Shown one piece after another: positions 2,669 to 34,763 of a stretch of 40,097 nucleotides of DNA (position 1 is its first letter; the number at the start of each line of letters is the position of its first letter). This DNA comes from Pilasporangium apinafurcum (Eukaryota; Oomycota; Peronosporomycetes; Pythiales; Pythiaceae), in contig BCKE01000016.1 in assembly GCA_001600495.1 (NCBI GenBank), positions 264,474-304,570 on the forward strand, in the 5' to 3' direction. The notes beneath the pieces are model-generated. The model was not told where the DNA came from and ran no database searches. It saw only the letters and a program-made list of their open reading frames with translations. Made by a program: the position numbers and the translations under genes.

Positions 2669-3238
2669 AAAACGAGGCCGCTTTTGACCAAAAAGATGAT
2701 TTAGACTAAAGCACCCCAAAGCTGTCGATGCACGTGATAGCAGAATAACTTTAAATGTTTTATAACTAACATGAGCATTGCGTTTTCATTTTAGGAACGA
2801 GGAAGAAATTCCATCCGTACCATTTATTATTTGCACATGTTCTTCTGCATTGATATGCAACTTTAGAGTGCATTTACGAGTATGGATGCACAATGAGTCT
2901 AGCAGGTTTTCTCAATATGATAACAGCTTCATCAAACTTCCATTGCTGATAATGCTTATTGACAAAATTTGTGACTTTATGGTGAACCCATTTCGGCGTT
3001 AAGCCGCGTCGCATTTATGTCACAGTTGGGAGGCGTGAGTCTAAGCACATTAAGGAGGCAGAACATGTTAATGGCTGCCACGCTGGTGGGTGCTTAACCG
3101 TAGGCTACTTTGAGACAAAGTAGTTCGATCTGCGACGTGTGAATCAAGATAACCACATCATCGCGAAATCACTGCACAAGTTTTGGTCCACCCATAGGTT
3201 TATTTTCAATTTTTCCAACTTCAGGAAAGGTGTTCACA
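2669..3238. other. intergenic between the two mitochondrial LEA-like genes
   Basis: No supported gene. Short plus ORFs at 2778-3002 and 3139-3372 have non-coding composition; the second overlaps the next gene in another frame. The sequence tttATTTTCAATTTTTCC near 3200 is a weak match to the core promoter seen upstream of other array genes. Confidence 0.5.
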
Positions 3239-4369
3239 ATGCAAGCCGCTCGCCGTATTGCGATGATCTCTCGCCAAGTGAGGGCGCCCGCGAGAGATCA
3301 CATGAAGACTCGTGTTATTGGCCAAGAGTCTGGAGCGTTCTCAACATCGACACAGAACCATTCCAGGACTGATCAATCTGCCAACTCTACTATCCATTCG
3401 ATGATGGACAAGACTGAAAAAAAAGCAAAAGAAGGCTTAGAAAATGCTTCATCCGAAGCCAAGTCGACTAAAGAAGCGGCCAACTCCACTTTCCAAACCA
3501 TCAAAGACAAGGCAAATGAAATTTATGAAAAAGTGACACCAGATGAGTCCACAATACAAGAAATGAAAGGAAAAGCGCGCGAGATGGCGACCAAAGCGGA
3601 TGATACGGTTAAAAAAGTAGTTGGTACCGCACCATCTGAAGCTGTTTCAAAGAGCAGCACTGTTCAAGCCGTGAAAAACAAGGCAAACGAGATGCAAGAG
3701 AACGTTGCTGCTCGTAGTGAGGCTATTAAAGAAGAAATGAAAACCAAGGCGAACGAGATGCGTGAAAATGCTGCTGTTGGCGGAGAGGCAGTCAAGAAAT
3801 CAATGAAGAATAAGGCGAACGAGATGCGTGAGAACGTTGCAGTCCGTAGTGAATCAGTGAAGGATGACTTGAAGAACAAGGCAAAGGACGTGCGGGAGAA
3901 CGCAAATGCTGGCGGTGAGGCTATAAAGGAAGGAATCAAAGACAAGGCGAACGAGATGCGAGAGAACGTTGCCGCTCGTGGTGAGTCGATGAAGGAAAAC
4001 ATAAAGCACAAGACTCGCAGTGTGGTTGACAAGTCGCGCAGCAAAGCAAAGGAAGCATTGGATTTAACGTTTTCCAACCAGAGCGCAAAGAGCTCCACGG
4101 TGCATTCGTTGAAGGATAAAGACGTTTTCGGTACACCATTGTCTGAGGCTGCTTCGAATGATCCATCTATCCACTCGATGAAGGAAAAAGCAAACGAAAC
4201 GTTTGGCAACAATGACACATTCAAAGCAGATCATGGATCGATTATTGAAACAATGAAGGAGAAGGCGCGAGAACTGTTTAATAACACTAGCGCACCTACG
4301 GCGCAGAAACTTGCCGATGAAGCGCAGGCTATGAAAGCGAAGCAAGACAAGAAGGAAAAGAATGAATGA
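3239..4369 (+). CDS. mitochondrially targeted LEA-like protein with 22-residue repeats (376 aa)
   Basis: The ATG at 3239 gives MQAARRIAMISRQVRAPA, a presequence homologous to that of the preceding gene. A further in-frame codon upstream is GTG and is not used here. After the AFSTSTQ segment come helical Lys/Glu/Ala blocks, each opening with a [ST]xIHSM or SxxQxxK segment. The centre holds five 22-residue repeats (two 11-mers each) of the type KANEMRENVAVRSExxKxxxKN. Alternate copies carry R-x-E and G-G-E (VAARSE, AVGGE, VAVRSE, NAGGE, VAARGE), so the duplicated unit was probably 44 residues. The tail contains NETFGNNDT and ARELFNNTSA, versions of the shared KDKAN...FG module. Length, composition and 11-mer periodicity fit LEA_4/group 3 LEA. 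The tandem placement suggests an old duplication followed by repeat divergence. Confidence 0.85.
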   Translation: MQAARRIAMISRQVRAPARDHMKTRVIGQESGAFSTSTQNHSRTDQSANSTIHSMMDKTEKKAKEGLENASSEAKSTKEAANSTFQTIKDKANEIYEKVTPDESTIQEMKGKAREMATKADDTVKKVVGTAPSEAVSKSSTVQAVKNKANEMQENVAARSEAIKEEMKTKANEMRENAAVGGEAVKKSMKNKANEMRENVAVRSESVKDDLKNKAKDVRENANAGGEAIKEGIKDKANEMRENVAARGESMKENIKHKTRSVVDKSRSKAKEALDLTFSNQSAKSSTVHSLKDKDVFGTPLSEAASNDPSIHSMKEKANETFGNNDTFKADHGSIIETMKEKARELFNNTSAPTAQKLADEAQAMKAKQDKKEKNE

Positions 4370-5123
4370 GCATTAGGTAGAGTTTGTCTAACTTGAATAT
4401 ATATATATGCGTATCTGTATACGAGGATAAACTTGCATCGATAAATAAGCCTTCTAAAACTCACAACCTTTGCATCGTTGAATCAACTTACTACCTCTAA
4501 AAGAGAAAGATTTATTCTACTACAGTGATAGGGTCATAGACAAACATTGGAATGCTATTGTCATGTATCACAGGATATACATATATAATAGAACAAATAC
4601 TTGCTGTTCGTTGGTGTTCTACGAATCCTTCGAACGATTCTGCGTGTGTCTGGTCATTCAAGACACTTTTGTATCCAAGTCGACTATGTAACCACCCCAC
4701 ACCTTTAATAAGTTATATAATATATGATAGGGTGATAATGGCTTCAACTTGGGCTGTCACTGGCGTGCTTGATCATTGTGTGTCACTCTTCTGTTTACTA
4801 GTCAGATCACTTGGAAAGATGGTTGTTCTATAAGATGAGGGATGCCACGGTTGAGATCATCAACGGTCTTATCAATTGGTCCAGCAGATCAATAGTGTCG
4901 TTGTGTTGGTCCTGTACATTTAACTTGATGGCTTACATTCAATTGAGACTAACGGTCACATCACCCATTATCTATAACGAAGAGTAAAAAGAGACTGAGA
5001 GTGCATGCATTCTGTTTCGAGCTCTCTGCTTCGCCATTTCTCTGGTTGTCATTTTCAAATTTGACATCGACAAGCAACAAGTATCAACAAGTGAACGAAC
5101 AAAANCAAACAACCTCAAGAACA
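4370..5123. other. intergenic and 5' leader of the gene at 5124
   Basis: No supported gene. It contains an AT-rich stretch (4395-4445), the initiator-type promoter at 5049-5063 and a 60-nt leader. One ambiguous base (n) lies at 5105, inside the leader that is duplicated at 6582. Confidence 0.5.
5049..5063 (+). promoter_or_regulatory. oomycete-type core promoter (initiator + flanking element)
   Basis: TCATTTTCAAATTTG lies 61 nt before the ATG at 5124. It matches the published oomycete consensus GCTCATTYYNCAWTTT with one internal mismatch. The left edge of the 596-bp duplication coincides with its first base. Confidence 0.7.
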
Positions 5124-5644
5124 ATGGCGTCTAACAACGATAAATCCATGCTCGACTCCATGAAGGACAAGGTGAACGATTTGCTCGGGAACAACGAAAC
5201 CACGGCTCAGAAGACAGCGAACAAGTTTGACCATGCGAAGGACAAGGCAGACCCGAACAAGGATACGCGATCGATCACCGATAAAGTGAAGGATAAGGCC
5301 AATGAGATGTTCGGAACTGAAGAGAGCACAGCCCAGAAGACGGCAAACAAGGTTGATCATGCAAAGGATCGTGCGAATCCAAATAAGGATACGCGCTCGA
5401 ACACGGAAGTGGTAAAGGATAAGGCCAATGATATTTTTGGCACGGAAGAGTCAACGGCTCAAAAGACGGCCCACAAGGTTGATCATGCAAAGGATCGTGC
5501 GAATCCCAACAAGGATACGCGCTCGAACACGGAAGTGGTAAAGGATAAGGCAAATGATTTGGCAAACCGTGCGGATCGCAAGACGCAGGAAATGTTTGGT
5601 ACCGATCAGGCTCACAATCGTCACCCAGAGTATGTTGAACGACC
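5049..5644 (+). repeat. 596-bp direct duplication, copy A
   Basis: Identical by eye to 6526-7121 except for the ambiguous base at 5105. It runs from the first base of the initiator motif through the last sense codon's second base. Sequence on both sides is unrelated between the copies. Recent duplication, gene conversion or an assembly duplication would each explain it. Confidence 0.9.
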
Positions 5645-5648
5645 ATAG
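5124..5648 (+). CDS. LEA-like 42-residue repeat protein, copy A (174 aa)
   Basis: The start is MASNNDKSMLDSMKDKV; the frame is open upstream to 5001, but that part is leader and contains the n. Three 42-residue repeats and a truncated fourth follow the plan TExVKDKANxMFGTEESTAQKTANKVDHAKDRANPNKDTRS. The second and third units are nearly identical at DNA level, showing recent unit duplication. No signal peptide, membrane segment or Cys is visible, so a cytosolic or nuclear disordered protein is likely. The C-terminus HPEYVERP is a version of the shared terminal P-x-Y...P motif. The protein is identical to that at 6601, but here the stop is TAG after a CCA proline codon, while the other copy has CCG TAA. 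Family: LEA-like by repeat character; I cannot name a specific orthologue. Confidence 0.88.
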   Translation: MASNNDKSMLDSMKDKVNDLLGNNETTAQKTANKFDHAKDKADPNKDTRSITDKVKDKANEMFGTEESTAQKTANKVDHAKDRANPNKDTRSNTEVVKDKANDIFGTEESTAQKTAHKVDHAKDRANPNKDTRSNTEVVKDKANDLANRADRKTQEMFGTDQAHNRHPEYVERP

Positions 5649-6525: not shown

Positions 6526-6540
6526 TCATTTTCAAATTTG
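6526..6540 (+). promoter_or_regulatory. oomycete-type core promoter, second copy
   Basis: TCATTTTCAAATTTG, identical to 5049-5063, 61 nt before the ATG at 6601. Bases further upstream differ from the first copy, so the two genes may differ in regulation. Confidence 0.7.
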
Positions 6541-7121
6541 ACATCGACAAGCAACAAGTATCAACAAGTGAACGAACAAAAACAAACAACCTCAAGAACA
6601 ATGGCGTCTAACAACGATAAATCCATGCTCGACTCCATGAAGGACAAGGTGAACGATTTGCTCGGGAACAACGAAACCACGGCTCAGAAGACAGCGAACA
6701 AGTTTGACCATGCGAAGGACAAGGCAGACCCGAACAAGGATACGCGATCGATCACCGATAAAGTGAAGGATAAGGCCAATGAGATGTTCGGAACTGAAGA
6801 GAGCACAGCCCAGAAGACGGCAAACAAGGTTGATCATGCAAAGGATCGTGCGAATCCAAATAAGGATACGCGCTCGAACACGGAAGTGGTAAAGGATAAG
6901 GCCAATGATATTTTTGGCACGGAAGAGTCAACGGCTCAAAAGACGGCCCACAAGGTTGATCATGCAAAGGATCGTGCGAATCCCAACAAGGATACGCGCT
7001 CGAACACGGAAGTGGTAAAGGATAAGGCAAATGATTTGGCAAACCGTGCGGATCGCAAGACGCAGGAAATGTTTGGTACCGATCAGGCTCACAATCGTCA
7101 CCCAGAGTATGTTGAACGACC
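6526..7121 (+). repeat. 596-bp direct duplication, copy B
   Basis: Counterpart of 5049-5644, offset 1477 bp. Divergence resumes exactly inside the codon before the stop (CCG TAA here, CCA TAG in copy A). Confidence 0.9.
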
Positions 7122-7125
7122 GTAA
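6601..7125 (+). CDS. LEA-like 42-residue repeat protein, copy B (174 aa)
   Basis: Encodes the same 174 residues as the gene at 5124: start MASNNDKSML, three full 42-residue repeats plus a partial one, and the C-terminus HPEYVERP. Its 3' flank CCGTAAGTGTA resembles the end of the first gene in the window (CCGTAAGTGTAATGG), so copy B keeps a family-like 3' end while copy A has a different one. That asymmetry suggests copy B is nearer to the ancestral arrangement, or that copy A received the coding part by conversion. Expected role as for copy A: a disordered, highly charged protectant-type protein. No targeting sequence is seen. Confidence 0.88.
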   Translation: MASNNDKSMLDSMKDKVNDLLGNNETTAQKTANKFDHAKDKADPNKDTRSITDKVKDKANEMFGTEESTAQKTANKVDHAKDRANPNKDTRSNTEVVKDKANDIFGTEESTAQKTAHKVDHAKDRANPNKDTRSNTEVVKDKANDLANRADRKTQEMFGTDQAHNRHPEYVERP

Positions 7126-10626: not shown

Positions 10627-11175
10627 ATGTCGGGAAAAAAGGAAGAATCAACTCCAATCACTCCGCTCGAGGATGAGATGTCTAATTCCAACCCACAGGC
10701 CGATAATGAGTCGATCATCTTGATGGATTGCTCCAATCCGGATCCAGGCAACTCATTGGATGCACGAGCGGTCCCACCCGATGACCCAGCGACGCGAGAG
10801 GAAGAGCCATCTCTTATCCAGTCGATTGTGAGTAAGGTGGATGAAGTGGTCAGTAATGCATTCGGCAGTGAGCGCTCAACTACTAAGGAAGACAACGAAA
10901 GGGGAGACTACATTGCGGGGGATGTAGATGAGGTCGAGACGACTGAGAAGCAAAGTCCATTAACAGACTACATGGACAATAATGATACCTCTGAAGAGGA
11001 ATTGGATGTGGATAAAAGTGATGAATTACGGGACAAGGAAGAAGAATTGTCTGGCCGCTTCAATTCTCCAATTGATGAGACTGATATAAACGTGAAGCCC
11101 TCTTCATATCATTCGAGCTACGATCCGCACTATACAGTCGTGAACTCTGAAGAGTATGAGTACCTTCACCCGTAA
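10627..11175 (+). CDS. acidic array protein with single LEA-like module (182 aa)
   Basis: Starts MSGKKEESTPITPLEDEM. The protein is strongly acidic (Glu/Asp/Ser-rich) and lacks long repeats. Residues about 62-85 (SLIQSIVSKVDEVVSNAFG followed by SERST) match the plan of the repeat in the 8036 gene (SIIDNIKDKVNNMFGTNEST), so this is one divergent copy of the array module. The end SSYDPHYTVVNSEEYEYLHP combines the internal D-P-x-Y motif with the terminal Tyr...Pro. A probably disordered protein; no signal peptide or membrane helix. Its function is unknown. It is a useful intermediate between the repeat-rich and repeat-poor members of the array. Confidence 0.8.
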   Translation: MSGKKEESTPITPLEDEMSNSNPQADNESIILMDCSNPDPGNSLDARAVPPDDPATREEEPSLIQSIVSKVDEVVSNAFGSERSTTKEDNERGDYIAGDVDEVETTEKQSPLTDYMDNNDTSEEELDVDKSDELRDKEEELSGRFNSPIDETDINVKPSSYHSSYDPHYTVVNSEEYEYLHP

Positions 11176-12369: not shown

Positions 12370-12663
12370 CTAATGGTTACTAGACAAAGCAGAAGTGGAT
12401 GAACTCGAGGTATTAGCGCCATTCCTCAGCAAAATCGATGGAATCTTGGGATTTTTTTGGCCTTCGTAATTGTCCATACTTGGTGTCATCGAGTACGCGG
12501 GATCGTCACTTGATGGATAGTCAGTTTTGATTGGACTCGTTTGGATGTCATGGATGGTTGGTTTGCATGTATCAAGGCTGCTTTTGAAAATATCTTGGTC
12601 AGCATCATGACTACCAGTCGAACCATTGTAGTTTCTTATCTCCTCTTGTTTTGACGGCTTCAT
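12370..12663 (-). CDS. small array protein with D-P-x-Y motif (97 aa)
   Basis: I start at the ATG at 12663 (MKPSKQEEIRNYNG). The frame is open further upstream, but that part is hydrophobic and Cys-containing, unlike the rest. The core SSDDPAYSMTPSMDNYEGQ aligns with SSHDPGFTATPSTDDYVDQ of the minus gene at 15367, and after it both end in short Ser-rich tails (ILLRNGANTSSSS; TLLDSDAEKESAS). The two are therefore paralogues flanking the kinase. Low complexity; no signal peptide in the chosen form. If the longer start were used, the N-terminus would contain a hydrophobic stretch. Function unknown. Confidence 0.65.
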   Translation of the reverse strand: MKPSKQEEIRNYNGSTGSHDADQDIFKSSLDTCKPTIHDIQTSPIKTDYPSSDDPAYSMTPSMDNYEGQKNPKIPSILLRNGANTSSSSTSALSSNH

Positions 12664-13321
12664 TTCAGACGTGGTGCATACTAGAGCACAATTCACTGTC
12701 CCTACTATCGTTACACTTGAAACTATTCTTGCCAACGTGAGCGTTTCTTCGCGTCTTCGCAATTGAAGAGATATATTGGACATATGAAGCACAAAGATTG
12801 GAACCAGTACAGCTTTGCACACAGGCTGCCACTGACTTTACTGATGCAGTGTGCATGTATGCGACATTTTTGTGCATGCCTCACTTGCACATATCTTCTA
12901 CATTCTTCTGCATTTCTCTGTGGTTAAACTTTCATGCATGATAGTGAATAGCTATCGATTGAATCTTCGTACGGTATTGACAGCAAAATAATCGGTGTGT
13001 CCAAGCACCAAGAACAATTGATTATGTCCTTTCTGTAGTAATATCGCATCAAACTGAGCATGGAAGCCACAACATAAATTTGTTCCGGCGCTCGTACCAT
13101 CGTCAAAATTCTGTAGGAAAAAAATAACAATAATTAGTATATAAAATAATAATGGGCGCCGAGCACATCACACGCAGTAATGGCTTCTAAATATTTTTCT
13201 ATGTTTTTCTTCAGAAGTGAATCAAGTGCAGCTTCATTTTTTGCAGTGAAACGTTATAAGGTCCCACACTCTTGAATTTGGCTTCAAACCCACAGTCGCC
13301 AGTTTCATATACAAAGAGAAC
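12664..13321. other. intergenic upstream of the kinase
   Basis: No supported gene. Minus ORFs 12665-12877 and 12924-13130 are Cys/Met-rich and unconvincing. A weak initiator-like GCTTCATTTTTTGCAGTG lies near 13230, about 90 nt before the kinase start. Confidence 0.45.
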
Positions 13322-14758
13322 ATGTTGGACAAGATTGATCATTTGAAAAACAAATTACTTGGGCGACACAAGCACACGAATTCGTCGCCTGCGGGCAGAA
13401 CCGACAGTCACGAGTCTGATGACCTCCCGAACAACAGTTCAGACACTCGGTTAGCCAGTCCTGTGCAATCAAGCCATATTAAAGACGATTCTTCTCCAGA
13501 AAAATCGCCTTCCCCACCTGGTTCACCTGACGAGGGGATTCGAATCATTGCTCAACCAGTAAAAGACTCTAATGGCAATGCAGTACCGAATGAGTGCAAA
13601 ATCACCGTGACTACGCGGGGGCAGCCTCAGTTATTCGAAGCCATCACTAGTGCGTTGAAAGATATGCATGTGAATATCCACAGTTCAACTGAGGATACTA
13701 CACCCGACGGCATCTCTACGTATTACTTCATCGTCAATGAAATGCTTTTGACCAAAGAACACCACCACGCATTGCAATTAAGAATAGCTCAGAACCTCGT
13801 TCAATCCAACCCAAAAGCTGGCGAACAAGTAGACGCAGCACAATCGAAGGTAGAGACTTTACCACAGGATAACAATGCTTCAAACACAAACGGAAATGTT
13901 CCCGAATGGTTGGTTAACATGAACGAAATCAGTTTGGGAGCTGCGATTGGCGATGGACGGTCAGACAATACTTATCGCGCATATTGGCGAGGCACGCAGG
14001 TCGCAGTCAAAGTTTTAGACGCCGACAACCACAGCACCCTAGGGAGAGCAGGCAGCGAGAACTTTTACCGAGAAGTGGCGGTTGTCAGCAATTTGAGGCA
14101 TCCCAATATCGTACTCTTCCTCGGCGCGGCGATCGACCCATCTCGGTTCTACCTCGTATTTGAATTCCTGGAAAATGGCACACTGACCGATCTGATTCGT
14201 TCGCTCAGCAATGGTCCCTCGACCAAGCTCGATTTCTTTCGGTTCGCCACGGAAATCGCCCAGGGGATGAACTATTTGCATGAACACTCGGTCATCCATC
14301 GCGACTTAAAATCGGAGAATCTTCTGCTCGACAGCAATAACACCGTGAAAATCTCTGACTTTGGGCTAAGTTGCGTTGTTGAGATGGGCAAATCGGAGGA
14401 TCTGACAGCTGAAACAGGCACGTACCGGTGGATGGCTCCTGAAGTTATTCGCCATGAGCCGTACTCCAGTAAAGCCGATATCTATAGTTATGGTGTAGTG
14501 TTGTGGGAACTAATTAAGAGACAACAGCCATTCCATGGTATGACACCCATGCAGGCAGCATTGGCGGTCGCTAATGACGACGCACGCCCAGCGTTACCCG
14601 ATTCGACCCCAGTAAAGCTAGCACAGTTGATCGAGCATTGTTGGCATCAGGATCCAACCAAACGACCAGATTTCTCAGGGATTTTGGAGGCGTTACTTGT
14701 GGTACAAAAGTCGTTGACAACGGCTGACTTTGAATGTTTGGGATTTGTACAGCCGTAA
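13322..14758 (+). CDS. ACT-domain TKL protein kinase with array modules (478 aa)
   Basis: A complete TKL-type Ser/Thr/Tyr kinase. The first residues, MLDKIDHLKNKLLGRHKHTN, match the array module (EKIHQLKNKMLHKEH in the 23803 gene; KIKHLKNKVLHKHDTD in the 26490 gene). A disordered Ser/Pro region follows, then an ACT-like domain (about 92-160, KITVTTRGQPQLFEAI...), an arrangement known from plant STY8/17/46 kinases. The kinase domain spans about 202-465: glycine loop 210-215 (G-D-G-R-S-D, third Gly replaced by Asp), VAVK Lys230, helix-C Glu251, HRDLK with catalytic Asp328, DFG 346-348 and GTYRWMAPE (366-374). All catalytic residues are present, so it should be active. The C-terminus FECLGFVQP ends in proline like neighbouring LEA-like proteins. 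ACT domains often bind small ligands; the ligand is unknown. A link to the array products is inferred. Confidence 0.93.
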   Translation: MLDKIDHLKNKLLGRHKHTNSSPAGRTDSHESDDLPNNSSDTRLASPVQSSHIKDDSSPEKSPSPPGSPDEGIRIIAQPVKDSNGNAVPNECKITVTTRGQPQLFEAITSALKDMHVNIHSSTEDTTPDGISTYYFIVNEMLLTKEHHHALQLRIAQNLVQSNPKAGEQVDAAQSKVETLPQDNNASNTNGNVPEWLVNMNEISLGAAIGDGRSDNTYRAYWRGTQVAVKVLDADNHSTLGRAGSENFYREVAVVSNLRHPNIVLFLGAAIDPSRFYLVFEFLENGTLTDLIRSLSNGPSTKLDFFRFATEIAQGMNYLHEHSVIHRDLKSENLLLDSNNTVKISDFGLSCVVEMGKSEDLTAETGTYRWMAPEVIRHEPYSSKADIYSYGVVLWELIKRQQPFHGMTPMQAALAVANDDARPALPDSTPVKLAQLIEHCWHQDPTKRPDFSGILEALLVVQKSLTTADFECLGFVQP

Positions 14759-14989: not shown

Positions 14990-15367
14990 CTAATACCCCG
15001 ATGCGCTTGCGCTCTCTTTTTCGGCATCGGAGTCAAGCAAAGTGGATTTGGACGGTAACTCTGGAGCACGTTTAGAGTCGCTGGAAGCATTCCTTAAACT
15101 GTTTTGGTCAACATAGTCATCGGTACTTGGTGTGGCGGTAAATCCTGGATCGTGGCTGGATTGATAGAAACCAGACGTAGAATCTTTCCTGCTCAGTGGC
15201 TCCGTATGGGTGGCTTCCGGTGGTTTGCTGAGATCGGTGCCTGCTTTGACAGCAGTGTAGTGATCCGGATCGTGACTCGATGGACTGGCAGAGCTACCAA
15301 TGTTTGCATGACTGGGAGGCTTGTGGTGTTCAGCATCGAAGGTCTCGCGATATTCGTGGGTCCACAT
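14990..15367 (-). CDS. small array protein with two D-P-x-[YF] motifs (125 aa)
   Basis: The ATG at 15367 gives MWTHEYRETFDAEHHKPP. Two related motifs occur: SSHDPDHYTAVKAGTD (about residues 30-46) and SSHDPGFTATPSTDDYVDQ (about 70-88). The second is closely similar to the core of the minus gene at 12663. The protein is hydrophilic, rich in Ser, His, Asp and Thr, and probably disordered. It starts with Met-Trp, as do the genes at 23803 (MWHYTD) and 26490 (MWQKVD). It ends SASASGY without a terminal proline and has no KDKAN..FG module. The motif pair suggests internal duplication. Function unknown. Together with the 12663 gene it brackets the kinase. Confidence 0.75.
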   Translation of the reverse strand: MWTHEYRETFDAEHHKPPSHANIGSSASPSSHDPDHYTAVKAGTDLSKPPEATHTEPLSRKDSTSGFYQSSHDPGFTATPSTDDYVDQNSLRNASSDSKRAPELPSKSTLLDSDAEKESASASGY

Positions 15368-15716
15368 GCTTTTACTACTTGCTGATATTGACTTCTTACT
15401 GTTGGATTTATGAACGAATTATAGACACGTTAGAATGTTAATGTGACATGTCTCCTCTCCTTAATCCAGTGGCTGCTTTCTCGCATATCAAGTCACGATT
15501 TGCTGTGGAGAAAATGTTTCAAGCACATTCTCCCAATAAATTTAATTTTCCTTAACTGCGCATCTCTACGTGGCCAGTCGCACATTCAAACTTCAACGCT
15601 ACCCAACGACCACATCTTTTCTTAAGCCAAACACTGAGCAGACGTCTCACACCTTAAACCACCACAGAAAAAATAGCAAGGGAAGAATCGTTCATCAACA
15701 AACACATACAGACACC
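15368..15716. other. divergent intergenic region
   Basis: Lies between the minus gene at 15367 and the plus gene at 15717. The frame of the latter is open upstream to 15570, but without an ATG. GTCGCACATTCAAACTTC near 15577 is a weak initiator-like match. Confidence 0.45.
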
Positions 15717-16013
15717 ATGTGCGATGCCTACGTCGAGAAAGAGGACTCCACACAGCACCAGAACCCAGTCGACGACCCCGATTTTTACACATATGGTAGC
15801 TCCGATCCTTTAAAAGCAGCCGCAGACGCTACCAACTACACCGATGAAACGCAAAACGCTAAGACCAGCAACACGTCCACTGACTATTGTCATGCTAACC
15901 TGGAGAAACACACCAACACACACTCAACTGTTGGCAGCGGTGACCCATTGAAGGCTGCAGCGGACGCTTATGAACGAAAAATAAGCGAAAGCAAGCTACA
16001 GTCAGGAAAATGA
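15717..16013 (+). CDS. small array protein with duplicated DPLKAAADA motif (98 aa)
   Basis: The ATG at 15717 (MCDAYVEKEDSTQHQNPV) is preferred; the upstream extension begins with a non-ATG codon. The protein has VDDPDFYTYG, a version of the D-P-x-[YF] motif of its neighbours. It also has two copies of a second motif, GSSDPLKAAADATNY and GSGDPLKAAADAYER, separated by a Thr/His/Asn-rich stretch. It ends SKLQSGK. It is hydrophilic and probably disordered, with no signal peptide. I do not recognise a named family. Its position beside the kinase and the shared motif place it in the array; its function is unknown. Confidence 0.7.
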   Translation: MCDAYVEKEDSTQHQNPVDDPDFYTYGSSDPLKAAADATNYTDETQNAKTSNTSTDYCHANLEKHTNTHSTVGSGDPLKAAADAYERKISESKLQSGK

Positions 16014-22513: not shown

Positions 22514-23803
22514 TTACGGGGCGTGTGGATACAACATGTTTTGGTTCTCAACGTCCAGCGGATCACGATGAGGGTCATATGCATCCTTTTTCGCGTTCTG
22601 CTGTTGAGTATAGTCTTGAGCTTGGACATGATACGCGTCGGTAGTAGGAATAGAGGTAGCATTGGTTGTATGACCTGTCGTGGGGTAATTATGGTTCGTC
22701 GTGGGGCGATTATGGTTCGTTGTGGGATAATTATGGCTTTCCTGGTTGCTTGAGAACTTGGATTCATCCGAGTGTTCTTTGTGCAGCATCTTGTTTTTCA
22801 GCTGGTGAATCTTCTCACTCAACTTCTTCACCTTGGAGTCCTTGCGATCATGAGCCGCATTCGTCGAATTTGTATGAGTGTCTGCATTCAGGGCTCCCGA
22901 GTGGTTTGGTTCTGTTGAATGGTAGTGCTCACGATGGAATGGATTGTTTTCGTGGCCAGAGGTAGTTGGTTTGTGTGTCGTATCATTGGGGCGGTTAAAA
23001 CCAAGCGCTTTGTCAGTCACGTTGTGAGACTGGTGATGATGAGGCTGAGTATCGTGAGTCAGGCCACTGACATTGCCGATACTCACGGGTGATTGCTTCT
23101 TCTGATCAGCCGAGTCCGCTAACGAGTGAAGCGTTGCACTTGGGGTCTCATTCGACTTATGGGTTGAAGTGCTAGAGCTACCTGGATTTTTGTACGAGTA
23201 CTCACAGTCTTTTAACTTTGATAGATCCGAAGAAGTCGCAGTGCTACCTGGAATCTCGGCAAAGGCATTAGCATCATTGTTTTTGGTACTAGTCGTCGTA
23301 TTAAGACCCTTCGAAGTGTCACTGGTTTCCTCTCTGCCCAGCACCTTGTTGATCATATTTCCAGCCGTATCTGTGATGGTCTGGAGCGTGGATTTTGGTG
23401 CCTCATCTGCACTTGACGACGATGACGATGACGATGAGCTAGCATTGCTGGCGGTAGACAAGTTATGTCGTTCATTACCTTCGACAAGGCCCGAGCTGGT
23501 TGTGGACTGAACTGGCCCAACGCTTGGTTCATTTGTAGTGTCTTCGTCCGAACCCAACACCATCTTCTTCAGTTGTGTCGCCATATCACTGACAGTTTGG
23601 AGTGTCGATTTCGGTGGCTCTTCCTGTCGAGTCTCATTTTCTTCTCCAGCCAGCGTCGGATCACCTGTAGACTTGTACACGTAGTCACCTGGATCAGAAA
23701 GCGAGTCTAACTTCTGATTTGATCCCGTGCTCGTACTGCTAGTCACGGCCGACTCGTTTTTCGCTGGCACCACAGGTTTCGCTTGATCGGTGTAATGCCA
23801 CAT
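22514..23803 (-). CDS. array protein with three modules and LKNK segment (429 aa)
   Basis: The ATG at 23803 lies 56 nt downstream of a clear core promoter. Order of parts: MWHYTD start; SLSDPGDYVYKSTGDP (D-P-x-Y type); module copies APKSTLQTITDTAGNMINKV followed by LG, and PPKSTLQTVSDMATQLKKMV followed by LG; a Ser run; a third, shortened copy (TPSATLHSLADSADQKK); LKDCEYSYKNPG; a His/Thr/Asn-rich stretch; EKIHQLKNKMLHKEHSDES (about residue 330), which matches the kinase N-terminus and the end of the 26490 protein; a short NYPTTNHNRPTTNHNYPTT repeat; and the terminus NQNMLYPHAP. No signal peptide or membrane segment. A probably disordered protein that combines nearly all array motifs. Function unknown. 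The stop context CCG TAA GTC is like that of the window's first gene and of the 6601 gene. Confidence 0.85.
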   Translation of the reverse strand: MWHYTDQAKPVVPAKNESAVTSSTSTGSNQKLDSLSDPGDYVYKSTGDPTLAGEENETRQEEPPKSTLQTVSDMATQLKKMVLGSDEDTTNEPSVGPVQSTTSSGLVEGNERHNLSTASNASSSSSSSSSSADEAPKSTLQTITDTAGNMINKVLGREETSDTSKGLNTTTSTKNNDANAFAEIPGSTATSSDLSKLKDCEYSYKNPGSSSTSTHKSNETPSATLHSLADSADQKKQSPVSIGNVSGLTHDTQPHHHQSHNVTDKALGFNRPNDTTHKPTTSGHENNPFHREHYHSTEPNHSGALNADTHTNSTNAAHDRKDSKVKKLSEKIHQLKNKMLHKEHSDESKFSSNQESHNYPTTNHNRPTTNHNYPTTGHTTNATSIPTTDAYHVQAQDYTQQQNAKKDAYDPHRDPLDVENQNMLYPHAP

Positions 23804-26489: not shown

Positions 26490-29400
26490 ATGTGGCAGAA
26501 GGTCGATCAACTCACAAAATCTGTCCTTGGGACAGAACCGCCAAATGCGAGCAAGGAGACCACTACTCGACCGACCGAGCGCTTAGACAACCAGACAGAC
26601 CATGCTTACCCGTCGAACCAGATGACGTCTCATAAAACCGATTATCTCAAAGGTAGCAACAATCAAGACTCCCATCCTGAGCAATCGATGACTTCAACGG
26701 TATTTGAGAAAATTGGACACCTGAAAGACGCCGTCGTAGGCTCGTCTGATGATGGAAATCCCAACAGCAGTATGGCGATCGACAACCAAGGCGAACACGA
26801 TCGTCCTATTCCGATTAACTCCGTCAAAAAAAGTACCGGTGGAGTGTCATGGTCGGTGCCAGTGAGTGCCGTAGAAGGCGACAGTCATACATTACCTGAA
26901 TACTCAAACCAGACTGAGGAGATGCCGACCAGGACCAAGGCAAAAAAGAAGGCTACTCATTTGAAAAATGAAGTGAAAAGGTCAGCCGACAGCGTTAATA
27001 CTGGTAGCAGGCGTGGTGAGAAATCTTTGACTTCCAAAGCGAAGGAAAAAGCAAGCCAATTAAAAGACGCAGTAACTAAGAAGACATCTGGCACGACTTC
27101 ACCTGATAACCAACAAGACGATATCGCTCGTTCTACGGGCCGCGTCGGATTTTCAAACCAGGAACCATTAGAAGCAGACAGTGACGACAAGCAATACTCA
27201 GACGCGCAGCGTTCTCTGAACCAGCGACGCCCTGGTGATTCTCCTGTGAATTCAATTAAGATGACCGTTTTAGGCAAAGGTGAGGAGCTAGAAAACACTT
27301 CACCAGGCGATCGAGAAAGTAGTTCCTCAAGTAGTTCCTCGGAGAGTTCTTCCGATACCTCCTCTGAGGATGAGAACAGTTCGCGATTGCTTGGTGACCA
27401 GCAGCACGATACTAGCAATGTTTCTTTCCAGAATCAGGATAACTCGATGGGCTCGGCTATAAGAGAGAAGGCCAGCCAACTGAAGAATGCCGTGGTTGGC
27501 CCATCAAACGATACTGATGTGTCAGATGAAAGACTAAACGCTATGGAACGCGCTTCTGATGATTCAAGAGCTCGGGATGCTCAATATAACGATGCGCCAA
27601 GCAAAAATCCGGAGACGCCCATATCGTCGCTGGTGTGGGAAAAAGCTGGTCAACTCAAGGATGCGGTGGTTGGAAAAACAAATAATGCAGTTGAAAATGT
27701 TGACAATCAAAGTTCTGTATATAACAATGCTTCTGCAGACAATTCAAACCAATACGCAGGGAAGCCGATGACCGCGACACTACGAGACAAGGCCAATCAG
27801 GTAAAGAACACCGTTGTGGGTGCATCCGACAATGTTGATGACAATGCCTCCGATAGCTCTTCCTATAGCTCCTCTGATAGCTCCTCTGATACCTCCTCCC
27901 ATGATTCGGCCAAGGACAATCTCGAGCGCTATCAACAGAGTACTGTCGGCAGCGATGCCAACCAAAATTCGGGAAAGTCGATTGGTGCGAGTGTGCTGGA
28001 TAACGCTACACGTTTGAAGGAAGCGGTAGTCGGTAAAGCAAACGATATGACGGGGACACAAAATGTTGAAACTCAACGTGACTTGTCGAACCCAAACCAA
28101 GAGAAATCACTGCAAGATAAGCTTCGAGACAAGACTGGTCAGCTCATGGGTGCAGTTATCGGTGCTCCGGACAGACTTGAAGACCGTTCTTCTTCTGGTA
28201 GTTCGTCCGATGACGAATCTGATTCTGAAAGACGCACCGACCATGAAGAGAATTTCGTACGTGGTGAACCGATGCAAAAGCAACCGACGGACATGAGTTC
28301 GAATATGCAAGAAAAAATTCAACGGTGGAAGGATGCCAGCGCAAGCAAAGTAAACGAGGATACTACAACTGGTAGCGACGGCAATCAGGGGCATTTGGAA
28401 TATGGAGAACGAGGTTCTGCATATCCCACAGGCGCCGAAACGATCCGCGAGAAGGTACCTAAGAAGGCACGTCAATTAAAGGAAGCCGTCGTGGGTTCTC
28501 AGGAGAACGTGTATAGCAGCTCTTCATCATCCTATAGCTCTTCTGACAGCTCTTCCGATAGCTCTTCCGATGACGAACAAGAGAGGGTTTCTAGTGAAGG
28601 CTTAAATCAAACTCCGGGCAAATCTACCAGCACGGCGATAGGGGATTGGGCTCGTCATCAAAAGGATGCGATGGTTGGTAAGGTCACCGATGCTACATCG
28701 ACCGAAAACCCTGATAGCCGAAGCACTTTAGCATCAGGGAAGCCGATCAGCGAGAAGATGTCCGAGAAAACTGGTCAACTGAAAGACACCGTGATGGGTT
28801 CACGTGAAAGCCTTTCTTCTAGTAGTTCCTCAAGTAGCTCCTCAAGTAGCTCCTCAAGTAGCTCTTCCGAGGGCGAGGATACCTCTACATTACTCGCCGA
28901 CCAGCAAGAGATTACGGAAAATTACAATCCGAGCCAAAGCACCGAAAAGCCACTAAGCACGAAGGCGCTGGAGAAAGCAACCCAACTCAAGGATGCGATG
29001 GTAAGCAAAATCGCTGAAACTACTGCAGTAGCACATCAGAGTAATTCAGCGCCAGGCGACAGCAACGTTGCATACTCGTCAGGAAAACCGTTGAGCGAAA
29101 AGCTTCAGGACCAGGCTGGAAAGCTGAAAGCTGCAGTAGTTGGTTCGCGCGACACCATTGATGATAGCTCGTCTGACAGCTCGTCTGACAGCTCATCTGA
29201 TAACGAACGACAACAGAGCACAATCGGAGGAGATTTGAACCAAAACTCAGAGAAATCGCTTGGCACAAAGGCTTTAGAGAGAGCAGGTGAGCTCAAGGAT
29301 GCCGTTGCAAGAAAACTTGCAGGTACACCTGGAACCGGTACAGTAGACGATCAGGATCAATTGATATCCAACGAACGAAGTTCTGCTCATCCCACAACGT

Positions 29401-31541
29401 TAAACACATCTTCTAGCGGTCAACCGAGTCACTCTCAGGACAGATCAACTGGCGGAAAACTATTGGAGAGGGCAGGTCAATTGATGGCTGCAGTGGTCGG
29501 TAGTACCGAGGTCGCCGATGTCAGTTCCTCCTCTAGCTCATCCGACGACGAGTCAACTTCTAAATTGCGTGATCTCGAAGAACAAAGTATGATGACTAAT
29601 GATTCAAGCCAGAGTCCAAACAAATCCATCGGCACGACAGTGTTGGAGAAGGCCGGTGCACTGAAAAATGCACTAGTAAATAAAGTTTCTGGTACTTCTA
29701 CAACCGAAGGCGTCGACACTCAGCGTCCTTTGATGGCTGGCGAACAGGATTCTGCTTATCCCACAACCTTTGATTCGATTACGAGCAATGAACAAACCGC
29801 GAATTCCAGAAAGTCTGTCACTGAGACGCTACGAGAGAAGGCTGTTCAATTGAAGGATGCAGTCGTAGGTTCTCATGGCACTGTTAACGATAGATCCTCT
29901 GACAGCTCGAGTTCTAGTGATGAAGAAGGTGAACATCAAGATAAGTCCATCACTGAGACACTCCGCGAGAAAGTCGGTCAGGTGGTGACTGCTGTGGTCG
30001 GAACACCGGACTCTAATAAAGCACAATATGTAGCAAGCCCGTCGACGGAAATTACGACACCTGTGATGCCAAACCAGCATCAAGAGAAGTCAATCGGTGA
30101 AACTGTGCGAGAAAAAGTCGACCAATTGAAGAACGCAGTGGTTGGAACATCGGATCATGCGTACACTGCCGGCAGTAACAACAACCAGCAACAAGTGGAC
30201 TCTGCTATTCACACAACCTCCCCCATCGGGAATGTGCTAAAGACGGCTGAATTCTATTGCTGCGCGGCGAATGATGATAACTCTGGAAAGGACGGATCGA
30301 ATCAGTTAGCTGCGTATCCAGAGGAGGAAACTCCAAGTTCGACAATGCACAAGTTAGCAAAGAATGCCGAGACATTTTCTGGTGGTGCCGCGGTCCAACA
30401 GCCTTCTCGCAAGTCAAGCAGCTCAAGCAGCTCAAGCAGCTCAAGTAGTGATTCGAGTGAGCATGACGCAGAGTCGCGCACAGAACAAACGAGCAACAAG
30501 TGGGATAATATCGCAACCAAGATGGCTCATAATCAGCAACCAACCCAATTGAAGAACGTGGGCAAGGCGCATTCGGACTCGCAAACTATCAAGCAGCCGA
30601 AGAACAGGTTTCATCAATACTCAAGAGTTCATGATCAAACGGTCGCTCCTAATCTGCGTAACTTTAGTGGAGATAATTCAACTGCTCAAAGATCTATAGA
30701 AACTCCAGAGCTGATGGAAACGAAAATGCAGCATCCATCGTCAGGTGAAACTCAAGTTCCATCCCATCTAAATCCAAAGCCTGACCATCAGCATATCCAA
30801 ACGAACGCACCATTCGCCTCGGATCACTCCACACCTGACCCAGGCGATTCGACGATGAAGGTTATCACAGAAAAAGCTGACGACGTGGCTAAGAAATTGA
30901 ATGACAACCAGCAGTCCGTTCTTACATCTCCTCATCAGTTGAAATCTATTCCGGCAGCACATCCTTCTCATGATCACCCGAACCAACAGCATGATATGAG
31001 AGGACATGCGTACCAATATCTTAACGACCCAATGATCCAGAAACCCACGGAAGACGAGCAGAAGATGGCGACGCCAATGGGAGCTAGTCATTATGCCACT
31101 GCAGACACTCGAACATTGCCAAAACAAGAGGAACGTCCGAGAGCGCGCAGTCATGGTAGCCGATCGTCCAGTAGCTCCAGCAGCTCCAGTGACTCGGATA
31201 ATTGGAAACATGAGCATGTGCCGAAAGACGAGATGGCGATGGCAGAAGAGCGAAAGCGAGCACACTCGGAAAGACCACCGTTCAAACAACGTCAGCCACA
31301 TCGCCGACATTCGACAGAAGCCCATCCAAATAGTCAAACCGATCGCCACTCAATGCCTGATTCAGGAGTTCAACGCCGTTCATCAAAGAGAGAACGACTA
31401 AAGCAGAAGATTAAGCACTTGAAAAACAAGGTTCTGCACAAGCATGACACTGACCCAACCGATGAACAGCAGCATTATAACGACAATAACTACGGCAAGA
31501 GTTCTTCTCATCGTGAAGCTGTATATGCGGAGCACCCGTAA
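26490..31541 (+). CDS. giant repeat protein: LEA-like modules alternating with acidic-serine tracts (1683 aa)
   Basis: One uninterrupted frame starting MWQKVDQLTKSVLGTEPP. I count about 24 module copies of the form T-x-L-R-E-K-A-x-Q-L-K-D-A-V-V-G. From about 27010 to 29930 they alternate between two kinds. Type A is followed by an acidic-serine tract (for example SSSDSSSDSSSDNE), type B by a short neutral linker (GKVTDATST, SKIAETTAV, NKVSGTSTT). The serine tracts resemble Nopp140/SRP40 repeats and are ideal casein kinase 2 sites. A His/Gln/Pro-rich region and a basic end (RSSKRERLKQKIKHLKNKVL) follow, the latter like the kinase N-terminus. The terminus is AVYAEHP. No signal peptide or membrane helix. 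Unlike Nopp140, there is no recognisable SRP40 C-terminal domain. A large disordered phosphoprotein or scaffold is likely; its function is unknown. Confidence 0.88.
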   Translation: MWQKVDQLTKSVLGTEPPNASKETTTRPTERLDNQTDHAYPSNQMTSHKTDYLKGSNNQDSHPEQSMTSTVFEKIGHLKDAVVGSSDDGNPNSSMAIDNQGEHDRPIPINSVKKSTGGVSWSVPVSAVEGDSHTLPEYSNQTEEMPTRTKAKKKATHLKNEVKRSADSVNTGSRRGEKSLTSKAKEKASQLKDAVTKKTSGTTSPDNQQDDIARSTGRVGFSNQEPLEADSDDKQYSDAQRSLNQRRPGDSPVNSIKMTVLGKGEELENTSPGDRESSSSSSSSESSSDTSSEDENSSRLLGDQQHDTSNVSFQNQDNSMGSAIREKASQLKNAVVGPSNDTDVSDERLNAMERASDDSRARDAQYNDAPSKNPETPISSLVWEKAGQLKDAVVGKTNNAVENVDNQSSVYNNASADNSNQYAGKPMTATLRDKANQVKNTVVGASDNVDDNASDSSSYSSSDSSSDTSSHDSAKDNLERYQQSTVGSDANQNSGKSIGASVLDNATRLKEAVVGKANDMTGTQNVETQRDLSNPNQEKSLQDKLRDKTGQLMGAVIGAPDRLEDRSSSGSSSDDESDSERRTDHEENFVRGEPMQKQPTDMSSNMQEKIQRWKDASASKVNEDTTTGSDGNQGHLEYGERGSAYPTGAETIREKVPKKARQLKEAVVGSQENVYSSSSSSYSSSDSSSDSSSDDEQERVSSEGLNQTPGKSTSTAIGDWARHQKDAMVGKVTDATSTENPDSRSTLASGKPISEKMSEKTGQLKDTVMGSRESLSSSSSSSSSSSSSSSSSSEGEDTSTLLADQQEITENYNPSQSTEKPLSTKALEKATQLKDAMVSKIAETTAVAHQSNSAPGDSNVAYSSGKPLSEKLQDQAGKLKAAVVGSRDTIDDSSSDSSSDSSSDNERQQSTIGGDLNQNSEKSLGTKALERAGELKDAVARKLAGTPGTGTVDDQDQLISNERSSAHPTTLNTSSSGQPSHSQDRSTGGKLLERAGQLMAAVVGSTEVADVSSSSSSSDDESTSKLRDLEEQSMMTNDSSQSPNKSIGTTVLEKAGALKNALVNKVSGTSTTEGVDTQRPLMAGEQDSAYPTTFDSITSNEQTANSRKSVTETLREKAVQLKDAVVGSHGTVNDRSSDSSSSSDEEGEHQDKSITETLREKVGQVVTAVVGTPDSNKAQYVASPSTEITTPVMPNQHQEKSIGETVREKVDQLKNAVVGTSDHAYTAGSNNNQQQVDSAIHTTSPIGNVLKTAEFYCCAANDDNSGKDGSNQLAAYPEEETPSSTMHKLAKNAETFSGGAAVQQPSRKSSSSSSSSSSSSDSSEHDAESRTEQTSNKWDNIATKMAHNQQPTQLKNVGKAHSDSQTIKQPKNRFHQYSRVHDQTVAPNLRNFSGDNSTAQRSIETPELMETKMQHPSSGETQVPSHLNPKPDHQHIQTNAPFASDHSTPDPGDSTMKVITEKADDVAKKLNDNQQSVLTSPHQLKSIPAAHPSHDHPNQQHDMRGHAYQYLNDPMIQKPTEDEQKMATPMGASHYATADTRTLPKQEERPRARSHGSRSSSSSSSSSDSDNWKHEHVPKDEMAMAEERKRAHSERPPFKQRQPHRRHSTEAHPNSQTDRHSMPDSGVQRRSSKRERLKQKIKHLKNKVLHKHDTDPTDEQQHYNDNNYGKSSSHREAVYAEHP
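28821..28868 (+). repeat. 12-bp tandem repeat in coding sequence
   Basis: Four units of AGTAGCTCCTCA, the first and last with one or two changes, encode a Ser run in the giant protein. A similar 9-bp repeat (TCAAGCAGC, three units and a partial one) lies at 30414-30448. Confidence 0.85.
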
Positions 31542-32564: not shown

Positions 32565-34763
32565 TTAGCTACTAATTTGCAGCTTTACCGTACGCGTGAC
32601 ACACGTAGCTGCAAACTGGAATATCGTGAGGCACAAGTGCCAATGAAGGCCATACGGATTTGTGGGTGATTTTGTATCGAAATATCTCCGTAAAACACTG
32701 AGAAACGCTAATCGACTTGCTACTGGAAATTTTTCTCTCACGACAGGAAGCGGTGCACCATGAAATTTGTCAAACTGGTCGCTAAACTGTAATTGAAGCA
32801 GCTCTGATACATATAATTCCAGGTGAACGAGCGTTCGATTAGTCTTTAACATTTCCAGGAAAGCGAGCAGACTTTTCGCTGTCATTGGGGTTCTTTCGTC
32901 GTCAAAATCGTCTGGACTCTCACCAAGAGTAAGGTGAGTTAACGCCTTGGAAAAGGCCCGGGTGGGATCAGCCAGAACCGTTGCAAACGCAGCGACTTCA
33001 TCACTACTGCAGCTGATTTCTTGGATGTCCAATAAAGTTAGCGGGGTTTTCTTGGTTTCACTGTAGTCAACAAACACATTGAAGGAATCCATGCGCACGA
33101 TTGTGAGAGTTAACTTGGATAATTTCGGGCAAAAGGACAGAATTTCTTCCAAAACCAGCTCGTGCAAAGAGAGGTACAAGTCCAATGCCTGCAAGCCCGG
33201 ACCTAGGAGCCGCAGCAGTGCTGGTAAAGCCCCAGATCTGTCGATGTCATCACCGAACATTGAGATGATAAGTCGCTTGATCCCATGGACACGTTCAGTC
33301 AGGGGTGTTGTCACCAGTTCCACTGAAACAACATCTTCTTTCAGTACACGACATTGGCCGTAACCTGGGACTACAATGTCGACGTATGTGGAGGTTCGCT
33401 CATTTGCTATGAGTTGGTAACGACCTCTCTGAGGAAGAGGGAAGCCAGAAAACTCTTGATCACTTTGGCTTAACCGCACGGGAACCATTTGACATATAGC
33501 ATGCTCGCGCACAACCACAAATTGCACATTGTCTGCACTGAGTTCATCCAATTTAGAATGCATCAGTTCCCTAGACATACTTGTTGAACGATAAATACTA
33601 GCCATAGCATTGATATCCTCCATCGTAAAATTGCTCTCAGAGATAAACAGCCGCTCGATGACAGATGTTGGATTGCGACTGAAGAGTGCGTGTGCCAGCC
33701 ACTTCCACTTCATATGACGAACACTAACCAAGTCATCATCAAGTACTGAATCGAGATACAGATCTTGAATTCCATCCGATTCGGCAATCGATGAACAAAA
33801 TGCAGCGAAATAATCGGAGTCTACTAGCGTCCCATAGAGTGCGAAGGACGTCGCGATCGGTGGCAGCTGCTTCTCTACCGGGGTGGATTTGGATTTACCA
33901 ATAACATCATTTATCAAATCACCAAACGCTCGCAGTAGTGCTCGGTCATCTTGTTCAGTCTGATGTGGGGCCAAATAGAACCCTAGCCACGCTATCCTCA
34001 CTCCATCCATATTCACCAGTTGATGCATCATTGTTAATGCTTTGGTCGCCAGTTTGGCTTGTTGAAGATCTAATCGGATGCTATCCAATACAAAGTTGAC
34101 AATGGAAGTACTCCGTCGTTGTGCTTGAACTGTTTCCACTATGTCAATGACGCATTCCATATACTCTGACAAGAGGTTGTGGTAATCAATAGTCAACGCT
34201 GGTGTACAGTCAAGTAAGATAGGAATCTCCCTCCGAGTCGAAATTTCTGAGGGTGTTTGGCCACTGAAAGAGCTCTCTAGTAGTCTCATCAGCTCTCTTA
34301 TTGTCTCTTCGTATTCTAACTCTGTTTTCTGGTTATCTTCAATCATTAAATTGTCTCTTAATGACGTTAACCACCACATTTGCTCAAATCCATCCAGTTT
34401 TTCTTCTTCTTCTTCCTTCTCGTCTTCGGCATCGTCATGCTTGAGCATAAATAGCGGAGGTAAACACTCAAACTCGAGTAGACGATCATCCGTCACCGCA
34501 CATTCCTTACGCAATAGTAGCCGCCATGTGTAGTCATCAATCCACGCAATAATACTCAGTACTTTAAGCGCCTGGAGACACTTCTTGTAGGAAAATCCGT
34601 CCTGGTTTTGAGCTATGGGGAGTCGCACAACTACACTCCAGCGCTCCATTGGTGCCCGATTCAGTTCTGCGAGGTCCACGCGCTGGAGCCCGAGACAGCC
34701 GCGGAGATGCACGCACCATGGCCGTGCAAGAGTTTCCACCAGTTCCAGCTGATCTGTTGACAT
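32565..34763 (-). CDS. leucine-rich protein of unnamed family, intact copy (732 aa)
   Basis: One intact frame from the ATG at 34763 to TAG at 32565. The N-terminal 100 residues are helical, with ARPWCVHLRGCLGLQRVDL and WIDDYTWRLLLRKEC. An acidic run (about 109-122, DDAEDEKEEEEEKL) and a long helical section follow. The C-terminal half is leucine-rich and repeat-like (LPALLRLLGPGLQALDLYL, LEEILSFCPKLSKLTLTIV, LLAFLEMLKTNRTLVHLELY), resembling ribonuclease-inhibitor/F-box-LRR-type folds, though I see no definite F-box. No signal peptide or membrane segment. Two full-length dead copies and one partial relic elsewhere in the window show a family that expands and decays. If functional, a protein-interaction or substrate-recognition role is possible, but only as inference. 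GCATTGGTCAATTTCC about 50 nt upstream is an imperfect promoter match. Confidence 0.85.
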   Translation of the reverse strand: MSTDQLELVETLARPWCVHLRGCLGLQRVDLAELNRAPMERWSVVVRLPIAQNQDGFSYKKCLQALKVLSIIAWIDDYTWRLLLRKECAVTDDRLLEFECLPPLFMLKHDDAEDEKEEEEEKLDGFEQMWWLTSLRDNLMIEDNQKTELEYEETIRELMRLLESSFSGQTPSEISTRREIPILLDCTPALTIDYHNLLSEYMECVIDIVETVQAQRRSTSIVNFVLDSIRLDLQQAKLATKALTMMHQLVNMDGVRIAWLGFYLAPHQTEQDDRALLRAFGDLINDVIGKSKSTPVEKQLPPIATSFALYGTLVDSDYFAAFCSSIAESDGIQDLYLDSVLDDDLVSVRHMKWKWLAHALFSRNPTSVIERLFISESNFTMEDINAMASIYRSTSMSRELMHSKLDELSADNVQFVVVREHAICQMVPVRLSQSDQEFSGFPLPQRGRYQLIANERTSTYVDIVVPGYGQCRVLKEDVVSVELVTTPLTERVHGIKRLIISMFGDDIDRSGALPALLRLLGPGLQALDLYLSLHELVLEEILSFCPKLSKLTLTIVRMDSFNVFVDYSETKKTPLTLLDIQEISCSSDEVAAFATVLADPTRAFSKALTHLTLGESPDDFDDERTPMTAKSLLAFLEMLKTNRTLVHLELYVSELLQLQFSDQFDKFHGAPLPVVREKFPVASRLAFLSVLRRYFDTKSPTNPYGLHWHLCLTIFQFAATCVTRTVKLQISS

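Follow-up and report, generated by a model that had tools for sequence, protein, structure and literature searches.

How does a protein kinase gene come to lie inside an array of genes for repetitive, seemingly disordered proteins, and why does its product begin like its neighbors? We analyzed this question in a window of 40,097 nucleotides from the 36.5 Mb genome of the oomycete Pilasporangium apinafurcum (contig BCKE01000016.1, positions 264,474 to 304,570). A sequence-only reading of this stretch had proposed that the kinase shares two marks with the array proteins, the array's own module at its N-terminus and a proline at its C-terminus. The N-terminal module withstood our analysis, and the C-terminal proline did not hold as a link to the array. 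With moderate confidence, we interpret the window kinase as a chimeric ACT-TKL duplicate with an array-type start, in which the module would confer array-like behavior, together with array-like expression of the copy.

The kinase reading frame begins at its first in-frame ATG, 24 sense codons past an in-frame stop (Table 1). The second in-frame methionine is residue 115, within the ACT domain; therefore position 13322 is the sole ATG start that leaves this domain whole. The Pfam match of the ACT-like region is weak (14.7 bits against a cut-off of 27), and 15 of 44 aligned family members match Pfam ACT at E 0.1. Its predicted β-β-α-β-β-α order fits an ACT domain, and the region is homologous to that of relatives. 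In the predicted model of the whole protein, the ACT-like arrangement and the kinase fold are both confident, the short N-terminal helix is of low confidence (pLDDT 55 in residues 1-10) and disorder extends up to residue 70. Compared as a whole with the PDB, the model is closest in fold to the CTR1 kinase domain (3ppz). The window copy has the complete kinase domain with catalytic residues that characterizes ACT-TKL (STY-type) kinases: Lys230, HRD (326-328), DFG (346-348) and APE (372-374) are all kept. In the Gly loop, a different residue replaces the third glycine (GDGRSDN; GSGRSGS in the canonical copy of the same genome). Judged by these residues, the catalytic core is intact. The named closest relatives are oomycete kinases, with those of Globisporangium and Pythium nearest by tree path.

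Table 1. Positions in the window of the kinase gene, its parts and the related modules of two array proteins.
Feature	Position	Strand	Basis
ACT-TKL protein kinase of 478 aa without introns, a diverged copy of the canonical oomycete ACT-kinase	13322..14758	+	ORF, Pfam, relatives, tree
Block ACACTCTTGAATTTGG resembling an INR+FPR core promoter, at -56 of the kinase	13266..13281	+	11/13 consensus positions; 11.1 bits with array-derived matrix
Array-type helical module MLDKIDHLKNKLLGRHK, residues 1-17	13322..13372	+	Profile 22.8 bits; helix 3-13 predicted
Ser/Asp/Pro-rich linker, predicted disordered, residues 18-67	13373..13522	+	pLDDT <50 for residues 12-70
ACT-like regulatory domain, residues 74-162	13541..13807	+	Pfam ACT E 0.028, below cut-off; predicted model
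Protein kinase domain, residues 204-458	13931..14695	+	Pfam PF07714 E 1.8e-64; conserved columns
C-terminal FVQP and stop, kinase family ending	14744..14758	+	GFVQP in P0004; GFALP in own canonical copy
Module in the 23803 protein, LSEKIHQLKNKMLHKEH	22772..22822	-	21.5 bits
Second module of the 23803 protein, VSDMATQLKKMVLGSDE	23543..23593	-	18.8 bits
Module at the extreme N-terminus of the 26490 protein, MWQKVDQLTKSVLGTEP	26490..26540	+	10.4 bits leave-one-out; start-to-start comparison
Module near the C-terminus of the 26490 protein, LKQKIKHLKNKVLHKHD	31398..31448	+	18.1 bits leave-one-out

The two array stretches to which the kinase N-terminus had been aligned were confirmed: EKIHQLKNKMLHKEHSDE is in the protein encoded at 22514-23803 (-) (the 23803 protein), and KIKHLKNKVLHKHDTDPTDE is near the end of the protein encoded at 26490-31541 (+) (the 26490 protein). 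The latter contains at least 20 module copies together with Ser runs. A profile of 17 columns was made from 21 modules, all from the 26490 protein and with the kinase excluded; these modules were chosen by eye, a selection that can make the profile look better than it is. The kinase scores 22.8 bits at residue 1. This score was reached by none of 20,000 shuffles of its first 20 residues (Met kept first), 10,000 of its first 80 and 2,000 of the whole protein. The 23803 protein was left out of the training. Further array proteins score lower with this profile (for example 9.5, 5.5 and 1.1), so the array has several module types, and the kinase is nearest to the 26490/23803 type.

Two array proteins have the module at Met1 in the same register as the kinase (MLDKIDHLKNKLLG): the 26490 protein (MWQKVDQLTKSVLG) and a short protein encoded upstream of the window, L014:1679-1984 (MWQRVEQIKHRFLG). 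In ungapped start-to-start comparisons of the first 14 kinase residues, 1 of 20,000 shuffles was as good against the 26490 protein and none of 20,000 against the L014:1679 protein, the start of which scores just 4.6 bits with the profile. Judged by the residues, the kinase carries the array's helical module as its start. An unusually amphipathic helix was considered as a property of the kinase module and found no support, the hydrophobic moment being equaled by 18% of shuffles of the same composition.

Could the likeness have arisen by convergence, a short Lys/Leu-rich N-terminal helix formed by chance after truncation and merely resembling the array module? The module is short and made of common helix-forming residues, the upstream DNA has no clear similarity to a donor, and the genome has 36 matches to an LKNK-type DNA pattern. 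Against this, the reversed control of that pattern has 15 matches, and 3 of the 36, the kinase's included, are within 18 kb of the array. The kinase's score stands at residue 1 and falls inside the range of the 21 true modules scored leave-one-out (10.4-44.5 bits). Among 10 million random 17-mers it was reached by none with average or 26490 composition and by three with the modules' own composition. None of 96 background ORFs reached it in the first 40 residues, and the highest score anywhere in that set, 16.1 bits, belongs to an array protein; the set (at least 150 aa, 28 loci) was unfiltered and includes the L013 array ORFs and some masked or overlapping ORFs. Position and register match those of two array proteins, and the kinase gene lies inside the array. 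The N-terminal module of L014:1679 in particular raises our estimate for the chimeric duplicate and lowers that for convergence, which we consider rather unlikely.

The module appears to be peculiar to the window copy. Homologues were taken from the 7,982 candidates with most shared words, of which 4,987 passed E 1e-20 and 120 were listed. None of these best 120 of 4,987 carries the module, and the highest score anywhere was 12.1 bits. The canonical ACT-kinase locus of the same genome, on another contig (C14), keeps the long N-terminal region usual for these kinases and likewise lacks the module. The finding that had been named as refuting the link, orthologous kinases outside the array with the same N-terminus, thus did not turn up among these homologues or in the canonical locus. 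We saw no orthologue of this kinase copy in the set of 120, and its history is therefore drawn from a single genome. Searches of the genome with the kinase N-terminus and with the 26490 and 23803 proteins found only the queries themselves (1, 14 and 4 candidates scored); they missed known array neighbors and are therefore insensitive to the module. Derivation of the module from the RGLKDSV segment of the canonical kinase was not supported: this segment scored -23.6 to -28.1 in one register in four proteins, and the highest module score anywhere in the 57 homologues listed for this check was 12.1.

The canonical gene on C14 is multi-exon. Six gaps that look like introns interrupt the part it shares with the window copy, and every one of them has one or more candidate GT..AG pairs, whereas the window copy has no such gap; introns of the parent are thus absent from the copy, as expected of a retrogene, on the basis of predicted introns. 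The window copy is also without roughly 300 N-terminal residues. Homology to the canonical kinase begins at residue 68, equivalent to approximately residue 297 in Phytophthora ramorum P0010 and residue 394 in P0004, and the linker (residues 18-67) lies outside it. A GVQRGLKDSVxNDMCRAVVK region is missing in the window copy; the C14 locus has it with minor differences, as do six of the seven relatives compared. A 5'-truncated retrocopy fits best with the missing introns and the missing N-terminal region, and retroposition is what we infer from these predicted gene structures. Between the two copies dN is 0.34 over 402 codons, synonymous change is saturated (pS 0.80) and identity in the last 250 aligned codons is 68%, signs of constraint on the frame of the window kinase. 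The window copy has a branch length of 0.73, against 0.09 for the canonical copy. In a tree of the kinase part only (33 rows), the two were joined in 18% of bootstrap trees; the duplication may therefore be old.

The proline C-terminus has another history. Array proteins end in proline strikingly often, in 11 of 15 cases, compared with none of 41 background ORFs with a length of 200 aa or more. The region concerned is window positions 1-31541 with the upstream loci L013 and L014 (C16:234474-254473). The count of 15 omits 12370-12822 (-), 14990-15367 (-) and 15570-16013 (+), none of which ends in proline, and two L014 proteins that both do, and it includes both members of a nearly identical pair of genes (5124-5648 and 6601-7125); with these five small proteins added it becomes 13 of 20. 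The same ending is a trait of the kinase family. Among 40 oomycete-type ACT-kinases, hand-picked from the listing and including related species and near-copies, 21 end in proline, one of them with the identical GFVQP, and 29 have proline in the last two residues. As a tag shared with the array the ending is therefore rejected; being common in the ACT-kinase family, it was probably inherited. Its likeness to the array is best read, from the sequences compared, as coincidence, at most a pre-adaptation. The link drawn from it is thereby corrected: the kinase shares its ending with its own family.

We also compared the kinase with array genes at the DNA level. Over the first 60 coding bases none of 300 shuffles was as similar to the 26490 gene, a likeness that may follow from that of the proteins, and 35 of 300 were as similar to L014:1679, no clear likeness. 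The 250 bp upstream of the kinase convincingly matched no array gene compared, the starts of g3242, g5122 and g6607 being off by a few bases in these and the promoter comparisons: 24 of 300 shuffles scored as high for g26490 and 16 of 300 for L014:1679, and for l4738- none of 300 did, yet an unrelated control gave 3 of 300. When upstream and coding DNA were combined, g26490 gave a signal with a z of 4.7, in which the two ATGs are out of register. For the linker, 17 comparisons with array proteins gave no clear likeness, 7 and 10 of 200 shuffles scoring as high as the top two.

Upstream of the kinase is a block resembling the INR+FPR core promoter (Table 1). Of 33 controls, eight have at least 11 consensus positions and one scores as high. 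A strong block of this type is found in 6 of 15 array genes and weaker ones in the remaining nine; the matrix was derived from five training blocks of six array genes, which are high-scoring by construction, and three of the nine genes outside the training reach the kinase's score. In P. infestans, a published analysis estimates INR+FPR in 13% of promoters and ties it to higher, developmentally regulated expression (PMC3599244). The kinase block is weak, and as a sign of array-like regulation it is suggestive. It raises the alternative that the module is functionless and arrived only as part of the promoter and start codon that the copy captured, so that the copy would matter through its expression alone. 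The poor conservation of much of the protein fits with this alternative: identity with the canonical copy is 68% in the last 250 aligned codons and 42% in the rest. It agrees less well with a module that still fits the profile while the linker that follows is not clearly array-like, which suggests constraint on the module. We regard a functionless module as unlikely.

The array itself had been called LEA-like, a term that is purely descriptive: short helical repeats in a hydrophilic chain are present, and membership of a LEA family is not borne out by Pfam. All Pfam LEA families stayed below cut-off in the kinase and eight array proteins, the dehydrin profile with E 0.0042. At E 1e-3 no database relatives were found for the 26490 protein among the 7,970 candidates sharing most words, or for one L013 array protein among 3,350 candidates. 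The array proteins at 1097-2668 and 3230-4369 have, by eye, N-termini like mitochondrial presequences; their matches to YtxH or apolipoprotein profiles are below cut-off. A second recurring motif of DPxxYT or SDPLKAAADA type is visible by eye in small proteins beside the kinase (10627-11175, 12370-12822, 14990-15367 and 15570-16013). One gene is repeated in tandem with its promoter (5049-5648 and 6526-7125) at a spacing of about 1.48 kb; in one compared stretch 300 of 300 bases are identical, and the first copy has an N in its leader.

Upstream, across 17.5 kb that separate it from the window, is a second and perhaps discontinuous group of array-type genes: five genes in L013:3116-9854 and two short ones in L014:515-1984. 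Three of the five have a related module near the C-terminus, and one L014 gene starts with the module. What appears to be one family of unassigned function flanks the array on both sides (32565-34763, L013:640-2946, L016:9078-10000 and L017:62-1264), its members sharing, by eye, a start of ...HLRGRL... or similar middle parts. Two opposite genes, L017:3321-5348 (-) and L017:7787-9823 (+), have a long identical N-terminal stretch, again by eye.

In the chimeric duplicate that we favor, a processed mRNA of the canonical kinase would probably have given rise to the intronless, 5'-truncated copy that now sits inside the disordered-protein gene array. An array-type start, consisting of the helical module and the disordered linker and presumably taken from an array gene, would replace the roughly 300 residues lost. 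Most likely, the module would then give the kinase the behavior of an array protein, such as folding into a helix at a membrane, upon drying or within an assembly. Combined with array-like expression, this would allow an ACT-regulated kinase to act where and when the Ser-rich proteins accumulate. The earlier suggestion that the repeats recruit the kinase would have array proteins bind it through its module and hold it as a scaffold does. The kinase and its neighbors do have the same module, the 26490 protein offers its many copies, and its Ser runs are potential substrates; module-module binding would be hypothetical and the hydrophobic moment is ordinary. Such recruitment seems improbable, and shared localization or expression is the likelier meaning of the common module as far as the sequences indicate. 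Also doubtful in our estimate is that a metabolite-sensing ACT kinase gained the helix of a lineage-specific stress-protein system as an address tag, and co-assembles with and phosphorylates its Ser-rich proteins on drying or at a membrane. If the chimeric origin is true, the locus would clearly illustrate how an enzyme can enter a disordered-protein system by acquiring its repeat unit. The kinase module would also be a small, deletable tag for asking what such repeats do in cells.

Several known systems resemble parts of this locus. We found no paper on an oomycete TKL kinase with an ACT domain, and, judged by titles and the beginnings of abstracts, nothing relevant on oomycete LEA, dehydrin or desiccation proteins, oomycete retrogenes or kinase-LEA fusions; the portion of the P. 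infestans kinome paper available to us has no mention of 'ACT domain' or 'LEA' (PMC3019232). The nearest system is the canonical oomycete TKL ACT-kinase of Phytophthora, Globisporangium and Pythium, annotated as 'TKL protein kinase' or STY17. The window copy shares with it an ACT-like region followed by a TKL kinase domain, mostly at 44-54% identity, and the C-terminal stretch, often with proline last or next to last. The two differ in length: 37 of the 40 picked canonical kinases are 669-825 aa (the other three are 452-508 aa), and the window copy is 478 aa. The plant kinases STY8, STY17 and STY46 combine an ACT domain with a kinase domain and are 33-38% identical to the window kinase among the plant matches listed. 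They have dual specificity and phosphorylate chloroplast precursors, a role that would not be expected for the window kinase. Metabolic regulation through the ACT domain is stated for plant STY-type kinases (PMC7020187), and by analogy with these relatives the window kinase may be regulated in the same way. Short paralogues of about 300 aa in Phytophthora and Nothophytophthora are likewise shortened copies of the ACT-kinase. They form a separate clade (99/96 support), several start with MPLF..., none has the module, and by their length they are probably too short for an ACT domain. Finally, LEA and dehydrin-type stress proteins resemble the array proteins in having short helical segments that recur along a hydrophilic chain, which by its sequence seems to be disordered.
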